In this document: piece after piece, positions 29,212-36,580 of the stretch
How positions within the stretch are numbered: the first letter of the stretch is position 1
How the letters are laid out: each line of letters opens with the position of its first letter
DNA from: Archaeoglobi archaeon
GTDB lineage: Archaea; Halobacteriota; Archaeoglobi; Archaeoglobales; Archaeoglobaceae
Length of the DNA stretch: 54,137 nucleotides
NCBI GenBank assembly: GCA_029259345.1
Contig: JAPDIX010000005.1
Location: 1-54,137 of the forward strand
Direction: 5' to 3'
Position numbers and translations under genes: made by a program
Notes under the pieces: model-generated
Told to the model about the DNA's origin: nothing
What the model saw: only the letters and a program-made list of their open reading frames with translations
The model's database searches: none

Positions 29212-30355
29212 CTTCACTTTCAGCTGTGTTAAAGTTGTTTTTGGTCCTGACCGCATCAAGGAGATATGCAGTGTGGTTAGGAGACTCGGGGGCAAGAAAG
29301 TAGTGGTCATCACAGACAAAGCAATGAAGCGGGTTGGGGAGGAGATATGTGAAATTTTAAAGGAATTTGACTGTGAGTTATGGAGTAAGGTCGAACCAGA
29401 GCCTGAAATTGATGTTGTTGACGAAATTCTCAGCAGTGTTAAATTTGACACAGTCGTTGGTGTTGGTGGAGGGAGTACTCTCGACGTTGCAAAACTCTCA
29501 GCAGTTGCAGGCAAAGATTCGAGTGTCTCAGAATTTATCGGAAAAGAACTCCCAGAAAGAAGTGCAAAGCTCATCCTCTGCCCCACAACCGCAGGGACTG
29601 GTTCAGAAGTCACAAAGCTAGCGGTGTTTAAAATTCCGGGAAGGGAAGTTAAGTATGTTTTTGATAGCGAATCGCTGTATGCCGACATAGCTATCGTTGA
29701 CCCCATGCTAACGATTTCTGCGCCTCCTGAGGTGACAGCAAATGCAGGAATTGACGCTATCTGTCACGCCATTGAAGCATATACATCTATCCTCGCAAAT
29801 CCCATAACAGATATGTTTGCCGAGCAAGCCATAAAAATTGGTGCAAAAGCCATCAGAGAGGCTTACTCGAATGGAAATAATCTTAATGCTCGTTCAGAGA
29901 TGTCCTACGCCTCACTTCTTGCTGGGATAGCATTTAATGTTGCAGGAACTTCCCTTGGTCACGCTCTCGGCTATGCCCATTCACATATCCACAAAAGCCC
30001 TCACGGCAAGAGCGTTGGGATTACGATGCCCTATGTTCTGCAGTATAATGCAATAGCGAATTTGGAAAAGCATGCTAGAATAGCCAAACTTCTGGGGGCA
30101 AATGTTGACGGTATATCGCTTAGGGATGCTGCCCTAAACTCAGGAGTCGAATTTATGAAACTTCTTGAGGATTTACACATCCCCACAAAGCTTTTGGATG
30201 TCGGAGCGGGTGAAGATGATGTTGATGAGATAGCTGAAAGAATCTTTCTGAGTGAAAGGCACGTGTCAAGAAATCCCAGAGTTGTAAAGAAAGAGGATAT
30301 GAGGGAGTTAGTGAAAAGGGCAATTTACGGAACTACACACGGTTATTACGGCTAA
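29204..30355 (+). CDS. Iron-containing (type III) alcohol dehydrogenase
   Basis: 383 residues. Start TTG 29204 is preferred because ggaggtg at 29191-29197 lies 6 bases before it; TTG 29177 and GTG 29195 are in-frame alternatives. GVGGGSTLDVAKL is the NAD(P) motif; PTTAGTGSEVT follows. Metal ligands appear in GIDAICHAIEAY (Asp about 184, His about 188) and the two His of LGHALGYAHSHIHKSPHGKS (about 252 and 266). Such enzymes reduce aldehydes or ketones, e.g. sulfoacetaldehyde, succinic semialdehyde, lactaldehyde. Last gene of the operon; convergent with the RHH gene, overlapping by 23 bases. Confidence 0.88.
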   Translation: MDSFTFSCVKVVFGPDRIKEICSVVRRLGGKKVVVITDKAMKRVGEEICEILKEFDCELWSKVEPEPEIDVVDEILSSVKFDTVVGVGGGSTLDVAKLSAVAGKDSSVSEFIGKELPERSAKLILCPTTAGTGSEVTKLAVFKIPGREVKYVFDSESLYADIAIVDPMLTISAPPEVTANAGIDAICHAIEAYTSILANPITDMFAEQAIKIGAKAIREAYSNGNNLNARSEMSYASLLAGIAFNVAGTSLGHALGYAHSHIHKSPHGKSVGITMPYVLQYNAIANLEKHARIAKLLGANVDGISLRDAALNSGVEFMKLLEDLHIPTKLLDVGAGEDDVDEIAERIFLSERHVSRNPRVVKKEDMRELVKRAIYGTTHGYYG

Positions 30356-30905
30356 AAACCACCGAAAAGCCGTTAACTGTAATGGTGTCAACTCTCATCT
30401 CATAGCCGTCGGAGTAATATTTATCGAAAAGATATTTGATCAAGCTTAAGTGGATCTCCGAAACAGCCAAGCTTCTCATGTCATGATAGAACACGAAATT
30501 GATCTCGTTTTCGATTTTCTCAACCTCCACATGCTCTGCTCTGTTCAAAATCTGCCACAACTTACTCACATTCTCAAGTAACTCCTCCAAACTGAGGTCA
30601 CTTATCGGCCTCTTTGAGATGTACTTTACAGCCATTTCCAGCATACTCTCTCTTACAGCCCTCTCAATATCCCTTTCAGCAAGAGCAGTGTAGTGGTCTT
30701 TAGCACATAGTGTGAAATTCAATTCTTTGACGAAACTAAGAAGGAGGACGTCATAATCACTCACGTTTTTTACGTTTTCAGAATTGTAAAGTAAGTTAAC
30801 AGCTTTTTCGACGATATTGCTCAATGTTTTGTGCTCCTTTTTCAATTCCTCGATTTTTCTGGATGTTTCGGGTGATACAGTTGTGTGAATCCTCACTTTT
30901 GGCAT
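30333..30905 (-). CDS. Ribbon-helix-helix protein with C-terminal sensor-like domain
   Basis: 190 residues. The first about 45 (VRIHTTVSPETSRKIEEL ... TLSNIVEKAVNLLY) fit a ribbon-helix-helix DNA-binding domain. The rest is an alpha/beta domain ending in a beta strand pair (MRVDTITVNGFSVVFSRN) that I cannot assign to a named family; it contains one Cys near residue 67 and His residues near 70, 124 and 140. Archaeoglobales hold several proteins of this build. It lies tail-to-tail with the catabolic operon and might regulate it, but no shared operator was found next to its start. Regulator role is inferred. Confidence 0.65.
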   Translation of the reverse strand: MPKVRIHTTVSPETSRKIEELKKEHKTLSNIVEKAVNLLYNSENVKNVSDYDVLLLSFVKELNFTLCAKDHYTALAERDIERAVRESMLEMAVKYISKRPISDLSLEELLENVSKLWQILNRAEHVEVEKIENEINFVFYHDMRSLAVSEIHLSLIKYLFDKYYSDGYEMRVDTITVNGFSVVFSRNNRV

Positions 30906-31010
30906 GGGTTTTTGTCAGCATATCCCTTTAAAACTGTAACCTCGAAGATTCTGTTGAAACAATTGGGTGTTGCAAATAAGGTAACTCCAAACATTTGTTT
31001 TTGCCTAAGT

Positions 31011-31200
31011 TTAAGTCAATTTTCGCCCCCTCTCTAGAGTTCTGTCATCCAAGCCCATTTGAGGGCTAATGAAGTTGTAGTAAATCATATGTCCATTGAT
31101 TATCGGTGTATCCTCAATTTTCAATCCACTCGTGACCTTCTTTATCTCTTACAGTTCCACGTAATCTCTCAACTGAATTGTTGTTTAGCTGTCCTCCCCA
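31011..31200 (-). pseudogene. Transposase C-terminal remnant (DDE type)
   Basis: On the minus strand, pieces in two frames read GGQLNNNSVERLRGTVRD then, after a shift, KKVTSGLKIEDTPIINGH, MIYYNFISPQMGLDDRTLE and a stop at 31011-31013. The order N-x-V-E-R-x-x-G-T-x-R ... YYNFI-x-P-x-x-x-L matches the C-terminus of IS6/IS240-like DDE transposases. It has at least two frameshifts and no N-terminus, so it is a decayed copy. No terminal inverted repeats could be recognised. From 30906 to 31010 nothing else is seen. Confidence 0.6.
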
Positions 31201-31283
31201 TCTTTATCATCTGACGGATAAAGGAACAAGATTCCGCTTGCAAGTGTGATTTCAAGAGAATGACAAGCCAAAGTTTGTGATAA

Positions 31284-31638
31284 ATCTTTTCTGAAGCAGC
31301 ATTAAAAACTTTCAAAGAATACATTGAGAAATACAAGCTAAGAAAGAGGCTGTTTCAGGGACAGAGAAAAGATAGATATACAACAACAAGGACTTTGCAG
31401 AAGATATTTGACAACATGTAGAAAAGCAGGGATAAGGAAAGAGGTTACAGTTCATTCCTTGAGGCATTCATTTGCCACCCATCTGTTTGAGAGTGGAGTT
31501 GATCTGAGATACATTCAGGAGTTGCTTGGTCACAAAAGTTCAAAAACGACAGAGATCTATACTCACGTTGCAATGAAAGATTTGAGAAAAGTAAGAAGTC
31601 CGCTATACAGGATGGTTAAAGGTGAAAAAGATGGATGA
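31284..31638 (+). pseudogene. Tyrosine recombinase (XerA/integrase type), frameshifted C-terminal part
   Basis: From 31284 one frame reads [20 protein letters not shown] and [20 protein letters not shown], then hits TAG at 31419-31421. In the next frame the protein continues from [10 protein letters not shown] to [32 protein letters not shown] and GEKDG, stopping at 31636-31638. The two halves join naturally at FDN/CRKAG, so a 1-2 base indel split the gene. The catalytic His-x-x-Arg, the second His and the Tyr nucleophile (IYTHV) are intact, but the N-terminal DNA-binding domain is missing and further stops lie upstream. An inactive remnant is most likely; a free 76-residue C-terminal product is possible. 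Confidence 0.75.
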
Positions 31639-31721
31639 GTTCGCATATACTGTCAAAATTAAAGATAGCATGAACTTCGTATATCCTTCCAAAACCGAAC
31701 AAAAAAGTGAACTCGTATACT
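31636..31721 (+). repeat. Three imperfect direct repeats after the recombinase remnant
   Basis: TGAGTTCGCATATACT (31636), TGAACTTCGTATATCCT (31671) and TGAACTCGTATACT (31708) share the core TGAnyTCGyATA and are spaced 35 and 37 bases. The spacing is not a multiple of three, so they are not coding repeats. They begin on the stop codon of the recombinase fragment. They may be old recombination or protein-binding sites; this is too few and too imperfect for a CRISPR. Confidence 0.45.
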
Positions 31722-31789
31722 AAGTTAAGTGAAATCGGACTCCGCGGTGGCTTGAAAAAACATTTATAAACCAGGGAGTAATTAAAATT

Positions 31790-31969
31790 ATGAATATCAA
31801 GAAGAAAAAGCATGCAATCATAGGGGGACTTGCAGGAGGAATCGCAGGGGGTTTAGCAGGTAATTTTGGTTTAGGAATTTTAGAGGGCATATCTCTTGGT
31901 GTTGTATCGTTTATCATTATAGAGATAATAATATATCTACCTCTTCAAAAAATGGTGGAAACAAAATGA
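31790..31969 (+). CDS. Small glycine-rich membrane protein
   Basis: 59 residues, too short for many gene finders. A lysine-rich start (MNIKKKKHA) precedes a glycine/isoleucine-rich hydrophobic stretch (IIGGLAGGIAGGLAGNFGLG, 10-29), then a second hydrophobic helix (LGVVSFIIIEIIIYLPL). Evidence for a real gene: a catttataaac TATA-like box near 31761-31771, about 25 bases before the ATG, and an ATGA overlap with the next gene. No family recognised. First of a three-gene membrane cluster. Confidence 0.6.
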   Translation: MNIKKKKHAIIGGLAGGIAGGLAGNFGLGILEGISLGVVSFIIIEIIIYLPLQKMVETK

Positions 31970-32529
31970 GTAAGAGAACAACGATTAGAATGAACCAGAT
32001 AGTAAAGGAGGAGCTGATGAGGAGTATTGCAGTATTTTTCTTTGCCTTAATTTTCACATCTTTTCTATTGGTAAAGTTGGATCTGCCGACCAATTTCTTC
32101 ACTGTTGTAGGGATTCCTCTGCTCATTACAGCTGCAGTGTTTGCCATTCAGGTTAAAAAGAGAAGTGCCAAGGCTTACGAGAAGCCAAACATGAAGGATG
32201 TTGCATTACATGCTGTCATTATCGGTATCGTCTTTGCCATCTACGGAGTATCCTACACAGCTTTAACCATGGATTGGAGAGGATACATTTACCTAATTCT
32301 CCTTCCAATCTTTCTATTCTGGTACAAAAGAGCTGAGGGAAAAGCTAATCCAAGAAATGTTGCAAAGTACTCGGCTCAGGGAGCAGTCATCTTCATCTTT
32401 CTCGGACTGGCTGGAGCAAGTTTAAAGGGTTTCAATGAATTTGCTTATGCTTGGCTTACATGCTGGTTTGGTTTGCTTGTAACATTGTTAGTCTATTATT
32501 TTAAAAGTGGAAAGGTGAAAGAATGGTAA
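31966..32529 (+). CDS. Hypothetical membrane protein, about five helices
   Basis: 187 residues with hydrophobic stretches near 20-36, 43-60, 81-98, 107-122, 134-150 and 158-175, joined by short basic loops (KKRSAKAYEKPNMKD, YKRAEGKANPRNVAK). I do not recognise a family and see no catalytic motif. It is coupled to the small protein before it (4-base overlap) and to the next membrane protein (7-base overlap), so the three are expressed together. The group sits between a mobile-element scar and the actin-like operon and may have arrived with it; this is inference. Confidence 0.65.
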   Translation: MSKRTTIRMNQIVKEELMRSIAVFFFALIFTSFLLVKLDLPTNFFTVVGIPLLITAAVFAIQVKKRSAKAYEKPNMKDVALHAVIIGIVFAIYGVSYTALTMDWRGYIYLILLPIFLFWYKRAEGKANPRNVAKYSAQGAVIFIFLGLAGASLKGFNEFAYAWLTCWFGLLVTLLVYYFKSGKVKEW

Positions 32530-32897
32530 AGCCAGTTGACTTGAAATACGGGATAGCATTCGGATTTGCGGGTTTTGTTATAACCCTCGTTGGCATTTAC
32601 TACGCAACAGGCATGCTCGATTTAAGATTTCCTGCTGTTATTGGAGCAGGATTTTTTGGTGGAGGATTTCTCGGTTCAGTGATGAGAAGGTTGCATAAAG
32701 ATGGAGAAGAAAGAAAGGCAAATTTCATTTTTCTTGCTCTTATGTTGATTGTGGGCATTCCTTTAATTGCTGAGTATGCATATGACATTCTAACGGGAAA
32801 TTGGAAAATATGGAAGCTTATTTCTATATTTGCTTTTGCATACCTGATATGTTATGGAATTTTTCGTATAACGAAATCGAGAGGTGTAAAAACATAA
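32523..32897 (+). CDS. Hypothetical membrane protein, four helices
   Basis: 124 residues with four hydrophobic segments (about 8-30, 34-52, 67-87, 95-114) and a basic loop RRLHKDGEERK between the second and third. The second segment is glycine-rich (IGAGFFGGGFLGS). No family recognised. Last gene of the three-gene membrane cluster; overlaps the preceding gene by 7 bases. Could form a complex with its two neighbours, as three different small membrane proteins are made from one message. Confidence 0.62.
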   Translation: MVKPVDLKYGIAFGFAGFVITLVGIYYATGMLDLRFPAVIGAGFFGGGFLGSVMRRLHKDGEERKANFIFLALMLIVGIPLIAEYAYDILTGNWKIWKLISIFAFAYLICYGIFRITKSRGVKT

Positions 32898-33124
32898 TGC
32901 CACCGCTCCGCCCGATTCTTCGCCACTATCGTGGTTCGCACACGTTCGCCCAAATTTCGCAAGGCAAAACTTCACATATCCCCAGAACATTAAGTGAGAC
33001 TTTTGTTCTATTTCAAGATTGATTTAGAGTTACCACTACATCTGCAACACCACAAATACAACACTCAAGATTCGCCAGACCCACTTCGAAGAAATTTTTT
33101 ATATAACACAGCTCAACTTAATTC
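32898..33124 (+). promoter_or_regulatory. Non-coding region with TTCGC repeats upstream of the actin-like gene
   Basis: The first about 70 bases are clearly more GC-rich than the surroundings. TTCGC occurs at 32919, 32935, 32945 and 32956 (spacing 16, 10, 11 bases), and again at 33071. The near-helical spacing is what a DNA-binding dimer array would need. The last part has ttttttatataac (about 33095-33107), a TATA-like box 25 bases before the ATG at 33125. No gene with a start codon and plausible composition was seen here. Confidence 0.45.
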
Positions 33125-34153
33125 ATGCGACCGATTGGTGTTGACATCGGAACGAATTACACGAAGATAACCGCTGACGGTAAAAACGTTCTGGTTTATC
33201 CTTCCATTGTTGCCTATGGCGAAGAGAAAGAGTGGACTCTGAAAGGAGAATCAAAGAGCGTTTATGTTGGAGATGAAGCTTTACCCATTGTCCACTCTAT
33301 GGAAAATGTAGAGGTATTGAGGCCCTTACATGAGGGCAGAGTTCTGCACACATCATATTTTGAACTCGCCAGATACGGTATAAAGAAGCTAAAAGCAGAG
33401 AACACTTCAATAATTGCCACAGGTTTACCTGTAAAATCCTCGAGGAAAGAAAGAGAGGAGCTTAAGAAGGAAATGGAGTCTGAACTAAAGGCGAGGGTTC
33501 TCATATTTCCAGAGCCCGTAGGAACGATGGCATACATGGGGACAGAGACTGGAGTTTGCGTTGACATAGGCTTTGGCACGACGGACATCCTCGTGATTGC
33601 AGATATGGAGTATCTGAAGGGCGACACGATGCTTATGGGTGTGGACAAGCTCTACGAAAATCTGGAGGTGGCAGTGAGGAATAAGATCGGAATCAGCATA
33701 AGCCCAGAAGAGATGACAAAGCTGCTAACGACTGAAGGGTACGAGGTTGGGAGAATAAGAAGTGGAAAGAAGTTAAGCGTGAGCAGAGAAGAAGTAATGG
33801 CTGAATACGAGAGTCTTGTTGGTTCGTGGGTAGAGAGAATCGCCAGCAGAGTAAAGCTCGTGCTTGAAGGGCTTTCAACAATTCTCTTAGAGAACTTCAC
33901 CATCACCGGCGGAGGAAGTATGCTTCCGGGAGTTTATGAGATGTTTCAGGAAAGCTTCAAGGATATTGGTGATGTCAAGAGGCCTGACGATCCGATAAAG
34001 GCCAACTCTATTGGATATTACATGCTCGCAAAAACCATGGCTGGAGAAGAGGAGGAAGTAAAAGAGGAGAGGGAAAAAGAGGAGAGTAAAGAAGAAATTT
34101 TAGATGCTGATGAGAAAGGAAAAGTTAGAAAGGGAGGGAAAGGCAGGAAATGA
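33125..34153 (+). CDS. Actin-like ATPase (ParM/archaeal actin family)
   Basis: 342 residues. Three nucleotide-binding signatures of the actin/Hsp70 fold are visible: PHOSPHATE-1 IGVDIGTNYTKI (4-15), PHOSPHATE-2 VCVDIGFGTTDILV (144-157) and ADENOSINE ITGGGSMLPGVYEMF (260-274). The size and shortened form resemble ParM/Alp proteins and the archaeal Ta0583-type actin rather than Hsp70 or MreB. Residues 306-342 form a very charged tail, acidic then basic (KGKVRKGGKGRK). It has its own TATA-like box and overlaps the next gene by ATGA. In plasmids such filaments push DNA apart; here the role is inferred from the pairing with a DNA-binding protein. Confidence 0.85.
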   Translation: MRPIGVDIGTNYTKITADGKNVLVYPSIVAYGEEKEWTLKGESKSVYVGDEALPIVHSMENVEVLRPLHEGRVLHTSYFELARYGIKKLKAENTSIIATGLPVKSSRKEREELKKEMESELKARVLIFPEPVGTMAYMGTETGVCVDIGFGTTDILVIADMEYLKGDTMLMGVDKLYENLEVAVRNKIGISISPEEMTKLLTTEGYEVGRIRSGKKLSVSREEVMAEYESLVGSWVERIASRVKLVLEGLSTILLENFTITGGGSMLPGVYEMFQESFKDIGDVKRPDDPIKANSIGYYMLAKTMAGEEEEVKEEREKEESKEEILDADEKGKVRKGGKGRK

Positions 34154-34689
34154 AGGTCACTGTTGACATACCACCGGATATGGAAAGACTGCTGATGAAG
34201 AAGTGTGAGGAGGCAAATGTGACTCCATCAGAGTTCGTTTACCTTCTGCTTGAGTGGTATTTTTATAAGAGGCAGAAGAAGGCAGAAACTACTGGGGAGC
34301 TCAATGAATTTCTCAGAGTTGTGAGGGAAATCTCAGAAGAGAGAGTGAGATACTGCAAGTTCAGTGATGGTGCATACTGCGCTATCGAGACTTTTGAGGA
34401 TGTTTTCTCCGATAAAGAACCCGTTCCCATATCTCCTTACAGATGCCTGTTCTGTCTGTACTACGTGGACAGAAGGAAGGACAGAAGGAAAACCGAGTTC
34501 AGAGAGTTAACCGAGGCAAAGATGTACGATTTGGCAAAGATTGCAGCAAAATTCGTGGTAGAACTTTACGGCGACAGACTTGGTTACAAACCGAAAACCA
34601 AGAGTGACAAAGTTATGGATACGGGAAAGGATGAGGATGGGGAAAGATTGCCAAAAAAGGCAAGTGTTAAAAAGCTCCTTGATTGGTAG
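34150..34689 (+). CDS. Ribbon-helix-helix-like protein with cysteine motif, partner of the actin-like ATPase
   Basis: 179 residues. Residues 1-40 (KVTVDIPPDMERLLMKKCEE, VTPSEFVYLLLEWYFY) fit a ribbon-helix-helix domain: a strand followed by two helices. Then C69 and C77, and C99 and C102 (RCLFC), could bind zinc or an Fe-S cluster. The tail is basic and ends KKLLDW. Its start overlaps the actin-like gene by 4 bases. The order actin-like gene then RHH gene is that of plasmid parM-parR, where ParR binds the centromere and the filament. The cysteine motif is not typical of ParR. Function inferred. Confidence 0.65.
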   Translation: MKVTVDIPPDMERLLMKKCEEANVTPSEFVYLLLEWYFYKRQKKAETTGELNEFLRVVREISEERVRYCKFSDGAYCAIETFEDVFSDKEPVPISPYRCLFCLYYVDRRKDRRKTEFRELTEAKMYDLAKIAAKFVVELYGDRLGYKPKTKSDKVMDTGKDEDGERLPKKASVKKLLDW

Positions 34690-35551
34690 ACTTGGGCTGA
34701 ACATAAACGGCGATTTGAGTGAGAAAGAAATTGTGGATAGGGTAAAATTTGCTGAAATTGCTGGAATAAGGACGATTTGGGTGGGTGAGTTTGAGGGCTT
34801 TACTGATCCCTTTGTTGTTGCAGATATAATAAGCAGTGCTTCGAGAAGCTTAATTGTTGGTTTTGGAATACTGTCGGTTAGTCGAAGAAGCTGTGAGGAG
34901 ATAGTTGATAGCTTAGAAGTGTTAAGGCAGAAGTATGGTGACAGATACATTTTAGGGTTGGGTTTAGGAGAGAACGCTAAAGCCTTTCATAGACTGAAGG
35001 AGTGTGTTGAGAGGTTATCAGGTTGCTGCGTAGTTGGGGCAGGCTCACCAGCGACACTGAAGCTTTCTTCAAAGACTGACGGAGTGCTGTATAATTCCGT
35101 TAACACTGAGTTTATCCGGTGGATGGATGGATTTGTGGAGGGGAACATCTTCAAAGCTGCTTACGGTCCAGCACTTCTTCTTTCGAGCAAGTTTGAAGAA
35201 GATTTGATTATCGCAGCATTAATCGTCTTTCTTGGCAGTAAAAGACTTATTTCGGAGTTCAAGATGGATGCTATTGCCGAAGAAACTTCAGGAGTTGACA
35301 TTATGGAGCTTGTGGAACTGAGAAGATCGGGTAGAAGTATAAGGGAGAGTAGCGATGCAGAAAAGATACTCAAACACAGAGATTTTCTACTAAAAAATTT
35401 CACCCTCTCTGGTGGAGTTTCGGAGGTTGCTGAGGGGATAGAAAAACTGCTTGAACTATGTGATCACGTGGTTCTCGCAGACCCATTCTTCCGAGATCTG
35501 AATTCTATGAGAATGCTGGGTACCCTTGTAAACATGATTGAGGGAGGATGA
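34679..35551 (+). CDS. Luciferase-like protein, probably F420-dependent
   Basis: 290 residues from TTG 34679, which yields MIGRLGLNINGDLSEKEI, the usual start of archaeal F420-dependent luciferase-fold proteins (Mer relatives). IRTIWVGEFEGFTDPFVVAD and DRYILGLGLGENAKAF match the beta-barrel blocks. It is shorter than methylenetetrahydromethanopterin reductase (about 330 residues) and diverges after the middle, so a different substrate is likely. Upstream in-frame ATGs lie inside the previous gene and give atypical residues. It overlaps that gene by 11 bases and is 3 bases from hisC. Confidence 0.72.
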   Translation: MIGRLGLNINGDLSEKEIVDRVKFAEIAGIRTIWVGEFEGFTDPFVVADIISSASRSLIVGFGILSVSRRSCEEIVDSLEVLRQKYGDRYILGLGLGENAKAFHRLKECVERLSGCCVVGAGSPATLKLSSKTDGVLYNSVNTEFIRWMDGFVEGNIFKAAYGPALLLSSKFEEDLIIAALIVFLGSKRLISEFKMDAIAEETSGVDIMELVELRRSGRSIRESSDAEKILKHRDFLLKNFTLSGGVSEVAEGIEKLLELCDHVVLADPFFRDLNSMRMLGTLVNMIEGG

Positions 35552-35554
35552 AGA

Positions 35555-36580
35555 ATGAGGGAGGTAATCAGGTTTATCAATCCCTACGATGCAGGCTTTT
35601 TTCCTGAGGATTTTCCGTCTAGAGTTGTTATTCAGCTCGGTTCAAATGAGAACCCTTACGAGCCAAGTGAAGAAGTTAAAAAAGCTTATCTTGATTCGCT
35701 ACACACAATAAATCGGTATCCGAAGGCAGATTACAGAAGACTGAAGGAAGCAATTTCAGATTACACAGGCTTCCCAATCGAGAACATAGCTGTGGGCTGT
35801 GGGGCATCTGAGCTTATACAATCTGTCTGCAATGTGATAATTGACGAACTTGATAAGGTCGTCATTCCAATGCCTTCCTACACCATGTACGCAATCTACG
35901 CGATGCTCAGAAGTGCTTCCATAAGCTTTCCTGTGTTTGAAGGATATACGGTGGACTCAGAGGTTATAGCTATGGAAAAACCAAAACTGATCTTCCTGTG
36001 CTCACCCAACAACCCGACCGGGAATACAATCGAAAGAAAAGTTGTTGAAGAGCTAGCTATGCATTCCGAGTATGTCGTGCTCGATGAGGCATATGTTGAG
36101 TTTTCCGGAAAAAGTTCTATTGATTTGGTAAACGAGCTTGATAATTTGATAGTCCTGAGAAGCTTCTCCAAGTATTTTGGCCTCGCGGGCATGAGAATAG
36201 GATATGCCGTCTGCAACCCAGATTTGACTGAAGCGATAGAAAAGGTTCGCCTGCCATTTGCGATAAGCCATCCAGCTGTAAACTCTGCAATAGCTGCGAT
36301 AAAGTCGGAAAATTACTATGAGGCGGTGAAGGAAAAAATAGTTTCTGAAAGGGAAAGAGTGTTTTCAGAGCTTTCAAAAATTGACTGGCTTGAGCCCCAT
36401 CCCTCTGAGGCGAACTTTATCCTCGCCAAAGTTCATTCAGAAGATGACATTACAAAGAAACTTCTCGAAAAGGGGATAATAATAAGGGATGCGAGTGTAA
36501 TGGGGCTTGACGGTGTGCATATCCGCATAACCATCGGTAAAAAGGAGGAGAATGACAGGCTTCTGGAAGCTTTGAAATAA
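35555..36580 (+). CDS. hisC: Histidinol-phosphate aminotransferase
   Basis: 341 residues, fold type I aminotransferase of the HisC family. GSNENPYEPS (29-38), SPNNPTGN (150-157), LDEAYVEF (176-183) with Asp and Tyr contacting PLP, and SFSKYFGLAGMRIGY (203-217) with the Schiff-base Lys206 and Arg214. It converts imidazole acetol phosphate to histidinol phosphate; relatives also act on aromatic amino acids. Strong ribosome-binding site gggagga before the ATG. hisF lies 13 kb away at 49556, so the his genes are scattered. Confidence 0.92.
   Translation: MREVIRFINPYDAGFFPEDFPSRVVIQLGSNENPYEPSEEVKKAYLDSLHTINRYPKADYRRLKEAISDYTGFPIENIAVGCGASELIQSVCNVIIDELDKVVIPMPSYTMYAIYAMLRSASISFPVFEGYTVDSEVIAMEKPKLIFLCSPNNPTGNTIERKVVEELAMHSEYVVLDEAYVEFSGKSSIDLVNELDNLIVLRSFSKYFGLAGMRIGYAVCNPDLTEAIEKVRLPFAISHPAVNSAIAAIKSENYYEAVKEKIVSERERVFSELSKIDWLEPHPSEANFILAKVHSEDDITKKLLEKGIIIRDASVMGLDGVHIRITIGKKEENDRLLEALK

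Follow-up and report, generated by a model that had tools for sequence, protein, structure and literature searches.

The Archaeoglobaceae carry a chromosomal module of two genes, one for an actin-like ATPase and one for a small partner protein with a ribbon-helix-helix (RHH)-like N-terminus, which is lineage-wide in the family and is retained or lost together. It is described here from a 54,137-nucleotide stretch of an Archaeoglobi archaeon, all of which we call the window (Table 1). Our preferred reading, which we hold tentatively and at slightly less than an even chance, is that of a lineage-wide chromosomal actin with a dedicated adaptor, most likely coupling the filament to DNA. Judged against the open-access literature with which it was compared, the pair is a new form of the actin-plus-adaptor plan. 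To our knowledge, chromosome segregation in euryarchaea is poorly understood, and we know of no filament-to-DNA link for salactin, the archaeal actin for which a role in DNA partition has been proposed; the pair is a concrete candidate for such a link, in an archaeal actin family other than salactin.

Table 1. Coordinates of the two-gene module and its surroundings in the window, with the basis of each assignment.
Feature	Position	Strand	Basis
Insertion, ~2.1 kb, outside the actin module	30949..33085	.	Lacking in L063 and L033; flanking target duplication TCGAAGA
Imperfect palindrome with TTCGC copies, belonging to the mobile element	32898..33005	.	Core found at eight other loci
AT-rich TATA-like promoter element, genus-conserved, kept beside the insertion	33090..33109	+	Upstream regions of relatives
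Actin-like ATPase, 342 aa	33125..34153	+	Pfam, NCBIfam and PDB profile matches; family genome survey
Charged tail at the actin C-terminus, residues 306-342	34040..34150	+	Sequence; modelled with low pLDDT in the A. veneficus tether
Partner protein, 179 aa, Archaeoglobales-specific	34150..34689	+	41/55 family genomes; 31 loci in the contig collection
RHH-like domain of the partner, residues 2-45	34153..34284	+	PHROG 582, RHH_1/RHH_5, predicted helices, weak Foldseek Arc match
Cys4 region, C69-x2-SD-x3-C77 ... C99-x-F-C102, probable metal site	34354..34455	+	Invariant in 38 orthologues
C-terminal peptide of the partner, residues 171-179, end VKKLLDW, proposed actin-binding helix	34660..34686	+	Orthologue consensus; tethered model
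LLM/Mer-like oxidoreductase gene	34679..35551	+	3' of the partner in most genera

The ATPase has the three nucleotide motifs that the initial annotation, made from the letters alone, had assigned to it, DIGTNYTK (residues 7-14), DIGFGTTD (147-154) and TGGGS..PG (261-269), and the charged tail and the four-base translational overlap with the partner gene (ATGA) are likewise as first described. A Pfam search matched it to MreB_Mbl (7e-18), ALP_N (2e-10) and Actin (6e-7), and the NCBIfam models gave 57.7 bits for MreB, 56.6 for MamK, 40.3 for ParM and 12.8 for salactin, each below its own cut-off. A 35-member profile of the actin found MamK (5e-11) and MreB (9e-11) in the PDB, with crenactin absent among the sequence matches listed; the top matches of the fold search were MreB, MamK, actin and Ta0583, with ParM absent from the 50 best. 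By sequence and by fold, the window ATPase is closer to MreB and MamK than to ParM. In a small tree the window-type actins stand apart from salactins and MreBs, the ParM branches being too long to place. Of 55 Archaeoglobaceae genomes, 40 have one copy of the gene (split across two contig ends in one of them), at 55-92% identity to the window, and a survey of 345 genomes of the phylum gave no match above ~26 bits outside the family. Plasmid and phage collections hold relatives at ~25% identity only. Outside the Archaeoglobaceae, the relatives of the window actin are remote.

Identification of the window actin as a salactin was rejected, given the 12.8 bits against a 400-bit cut-off (NF053533) and the true salactins found at a separate locus in 14 Archaeoglobaceae genomes; some members of the family carry two actin families side by side. 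In the genome that we take to be Ferroglobus (G022), the true salactin orthologue (in the region L115, 4067-9713) lies between pilus-type (TadC/FlaJ-like) genes and genes for a coiled-coil protein and a MinD/ParA-like ATPase, labels that we read from the sequence, and this context differs from that of the window actin.

Conservation of the pair in relatives, which the initial annotation had proposed as a check, is borne out: of the 55 genomes, 38 have both genes, 12 neither, 2 the actin only (G043 and G044, both incomplete) and 3 the partner only (G023, at a contig edge, G032 and G048), an association that gives a Fisher value of 8e-8 when shared ancestry is ignored. Since 12 of the 55 have neither gene (one of them just 54% complete), the module is dispensable in some lineages. 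Six genomes (G008, G010, G039-G042) keep both genes on separate contigs, and the surroundings of such an unlinked pair were inspected in G010 and G042. The surveyed set presumably includes A. fulgidus (G001), A. veneficus (G019) and Geoglobus (G024-G026).

The partner gene shows 43-94% identity to the window copy across the family, and every one of its loci in the contig collection falls in an Archaeoglobi-lineage record. The plasmid collection holds no homologue, and from the genome, contig and plasmid searches together the partner is known only from Archaeoglobales. From its RHH-like N-terminus it continues into a Cys4 region and a linker that varies among orthologues, and closes with a C-terminal peptide that is conserved. 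The RHH-like character claimed at the outset holds, on signals that are several, weak and mutually agreeing, none over a curated cut-off: a best E of 8e-4 against the Arc-like repressors of PHROG 582, values of ~0.01 for RHH_1 and RHH_5 in several orthologues, and a weak local Arc match of the lone partner in Foldseek, which gave no significant PDB match. An AF2 model of the window partner places the two helices to be expected of such a domain at residues 9-21 and 26-48 after an N-terminal segment, and DSSP assigned no strand. The four cysteines (C69, C77, C99, C102) that had been singled out as unlike known ParR are, together with S72, D73 and F101, invariant in 38 of 38 orthologues, and the region is a probable metal site. 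A PDB profile search found no homologue of the partner, and no recognisable homology to ParR emerged from PDB profiles, ParR-type families or plasmids.

Of the 37 full-length orthologues of the partner, 35 end in the consensus [KR][LI][LIV]x(1-2)W. Departures from it are confined to G032 (KKALDW) and G048 (EKLLDL), which are the two genomes that have a full-length partner without an intact actin, a pairing expected by chance once in 666, to be read with the knowledge that the consensus was defined after the alignment was viewed and that the argument rests on two genomes. The decayed actin of G048 can still be traced 5' of the partner (L122, ~1777-2750; tblastn E 0.002), with several stops and frame changes and with positions 88-112 and 133-144 recognisable, and the Cys4 site of the partner is intact although the actin has decayed; this pseudogene is a natural experiment in the loss of a partner. 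No actin remnant was detected in G032. Because G032 and G048 keep the partner although neither has an intact actin, this protein may have a function independent of the actin.

Structure prediction adds to this picture. Modelled alone, the window partner has no helix past residue 140, and its C-terminal blocks have pLDDT of ~31-33. The two A. veneficus genes share a reading frame, and a tethered chain results when the two intervening stop codons are read as Gln; here the last helix spans residues 500-509 in a block of pLDDT 83, and the linker at 479-495 is disordered (pLDDT below 50). The two models are from different species and the tethered chain is an artificial read-through. The tethered model suggests that the tail helix docks, most simply on the actin. 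Taking this model with the behaviour of the motif, we consider a physical partnership of actin and adaptor through the tail quite probable, and given that partnership, a DNA-coupling function seems to us a little better than evenly balanced.

Let us consider how such a pair might work. The RHH-like N-terminus of the partner would, as its fold implies, dimerise and bind DNA, and the Cys4 site would hold a structural metal. At the end of the flexible linker, a short amphipathic helix with the tryptophan as its last residue would attach to the actin. Its likeliest contact site would be the hydrophobic groove that separates subdomains IA and IIA, where ParR binds ParM and arcadin-2 binds crenactin. 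The likeliest result would be a filament coupled to DNA, with chromosomal loci moved or positioned by it, and the adaptor might in addition regulate its own operon. In its boldest form, the scenario would have the Archaeoglobales segregate or position their own chromosome by an actin filament acting via a dedicated RHH-Cys4 adaptor, perhaps metal-dependent or redox-sensitive. Such a system would be the equivalent of ParMR on an archaeal chromosome, likewise built on an actin; we put this forward as a speculation, possible but distinctly less likely than not. The predicted actin-binding peptide is short enough for direct tests.

The surroundings of the pair bear on where a DNA site might lie. 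The initial annotation saw a possible centromere of iterated TTCGC upstream of the actin, in a GC-rich non-coding block. The TTCGC copies are indeed at 32919, 32935, 32945, 32956 and 33071; the block 32898-33090 is not GC-rich overall (45.6% G+C vs 44.2% for the window; 54% in its first 93 bases). The copies fall inside an insertion flanked by a 7-bp target duplication, TCGAAGA (30942-30948 and 33086-33092), which is missing from the two nearest relatives (G003 and G005), where only a short gap, 76 bp in L063, separates the divergent RHH gene from the actin; the TTCGC block does not belong to the actin operon. The core of the palindrome (window ~32947-32997) is found again at eight further loci, spread over six genomes (G003, G006, G010, G013, G018, G020), with a recombinase fragment ~2 kb away in G003, G013 and G018. 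Because the TTCGC copies lie inside the insertion and the core recurs elsewhere, the block is mobile-element sequence. Across the window, TTCGC shows no enrichment (72 observed vs 84 expected), and ~7% of simulated windows show some G+C-rich 5-mer as tightly clustered. The 110 bp 5' of the actin in 23 relatives share a TATA-like element, and no iterated repeat was seen in them by eye. The insertion, the recurrence at other loci and this lack of upstream repeats rule out the TTCGC block as the centromere.

The insertion does contain the mobile-element remains that had been noted next to the pair: a C-terminal fragment of a tyrosine recombinase (31408-31638) and two membrane-protein-like ORFs. 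Its ends are imperfectly inverted (GGTGTTGCA..GGTAACTC), and an Rfam search of it gave no match. The recurring palindromes (L128-L135) have ends resembling integron attC, for example ACTTAAC ... GTTAGGC in L133, and may be archaeal integron-type cassettes. We treat this attC-like reading as no more than suggestive: folded as a single strand, the window palindrome does no better than shuffles, and the recombinase fragment scores 93.5 bits as integron integrase vs 90.3 as XerD, a margin too small to separate them.

On the 3' side, the oxidoreductase gene is probably in one operon with the partner, and is followed by a hisC-like gene (35555-36580; the HisC label is our reading of the sequence). 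No mreC or mreD was identified at the immediate neighbours of the actin, among which Pfam checks covered a part, and no magnetosome genes were identified beside it. A second, unrelated RHH-like gene (30333-30905, minus strand) is genus-conserved and divergent from the actin in near relatives. A viral fold search gave nothing useful.

Several other explanations deserve attention. The partner might be an arcadin-2- or thymosin-like regulator of the actin and a transcriptional autorepressor, its tail sequestering or depolymerising actin and free actin tuning the operon, with no DNA cargo and with the actin serving cell shape or another cytoskeletal task. We regard this as possible, if rather doubtful. 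Tail conservation, tail decay without actin and the helix of the tethered model fit it equally well; arcadin-2 binds crenactin by a similar tail and depolymerises it (PMC5173319); and the MreB/MamK-like leaning of the actin, the lack of centromere-like repeats found at the operon and the persistence of the partner in two genomes without intact actin all speak for it. Yet the two genes are unlinked in six genomes, which makes simple autoregulation harder, and an RHH domain followed by a tail is the layout of DNA-tethering adaptors. Alternatively, the co-conservation might be incidental, an ancestral operon having brought together an actin with a task of its own and an RHH protein that regulates, perhaps, the oxidoreductase gene, a view favoured by the oxidoreductase gene staying 3' of the partner where the actin is elsewhere (G042) or lost (G032). 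The correlated loss of the two genes argues against it, as does the decay of the tail motif, with the Cys4 site preserved, in the two genomes that lack the actin, and we think it unlikely.

The initial annotation had considered a domesticated plasmid system, and in that vein the pair might be a degenerate plasmid or provirus ParMRC relic with its centromere still adjoining. The order of actin then RHH gene, the match of the window actin to the 'partition protein' family PHROG 691 (4e-27, 96 bits) and the neighbouring mobile element would suit this. However, the pair is conserved, single-copy and nearly family-wide, the scar is specific to the window genome as an insertion without counterpart in near relatives, the TTCGC palindrome recurs elsewhere, and plasmids and phages offer only the distant actins mentioned above, the plasmids without the partner; we find the relic very improbable, and the domestication claim is unsupported, while a remote plasmid or phage ancestry of the pair stays conceivable. 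Least probable of all is a metabolic ASKHA enzyme that forms no filament. The fold is shared and the EutJ and PilM profiles do score, weakly, on the window actin; the best profiles are those of MreB, MamK, ParM and actin, and on these and the fold matches we rejected that identity.

Returning to the filament-DNA adaptor that we prefer, the closest layout is that of ParM-ParR-parC, with the gene for an actin-like ATPase first, then that for an RHH-type protein, and a short C-terminal tail on the adaptor which in our partner would likewise contact the actin. Of the parMRC plan first proposed, the filament former and the RHH adaptor, conserved, co-retained and provided with a tail peptide, are supported, and the iterated site is refuted. 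Unlike ParM-ParR-parC, the window pair is chromosomal and nearly family-wide, its actin is closer to MreB/MamK, its partner has the invariant Cys4 region and no detectable ParR relative, and no iterated site was found at the operon; by the tests run on ParR homology and an operon centromere, the pair lies outside ParMRC. Inspected by eye, the proteins paired with two ParM relatives from plasmids lack both the Cys4 region and the tail motif. The crenactin-arcadin-2 system likewise joins an archaeal actin to a small partner, and arcadin-2 grips crenactin by a conserved C-terminal helix with a tryptophan after a non-conserved linker, in the groove where ParR sits on ParM (PMC5173319). The partner described here has this arrangement of unconserved linker and C-terminal Trp helix. 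Unlike crenactin, which belongs to the arcade cluster of Thermoproteota, the window actin is of a different family, and the passages of PMC5173319 drawn on here describe no RHH or Cys4 domain for arcadin-2. Salactin, found in Haloarchaea and other Methanotecta, resembles the window actin as a euryarchaeal MreB/MamK-like actin; the paper proposing its role in DNA partition (PMC10746226) does not use the terms adaptor and ParR. MreB and MamK themselves are the nearest solved structures by profile and fold, and differ in that the window actin has an RHH-type partner. Lastly, SegA-SegB similarly combines an archaeal chromosomal ATPase with a protein that binds DNA, SegB being of the RHH type; the ATPase, SegA, is of the ParA-like Walker kind (PMC7617429), where the window pair is built on an actin.
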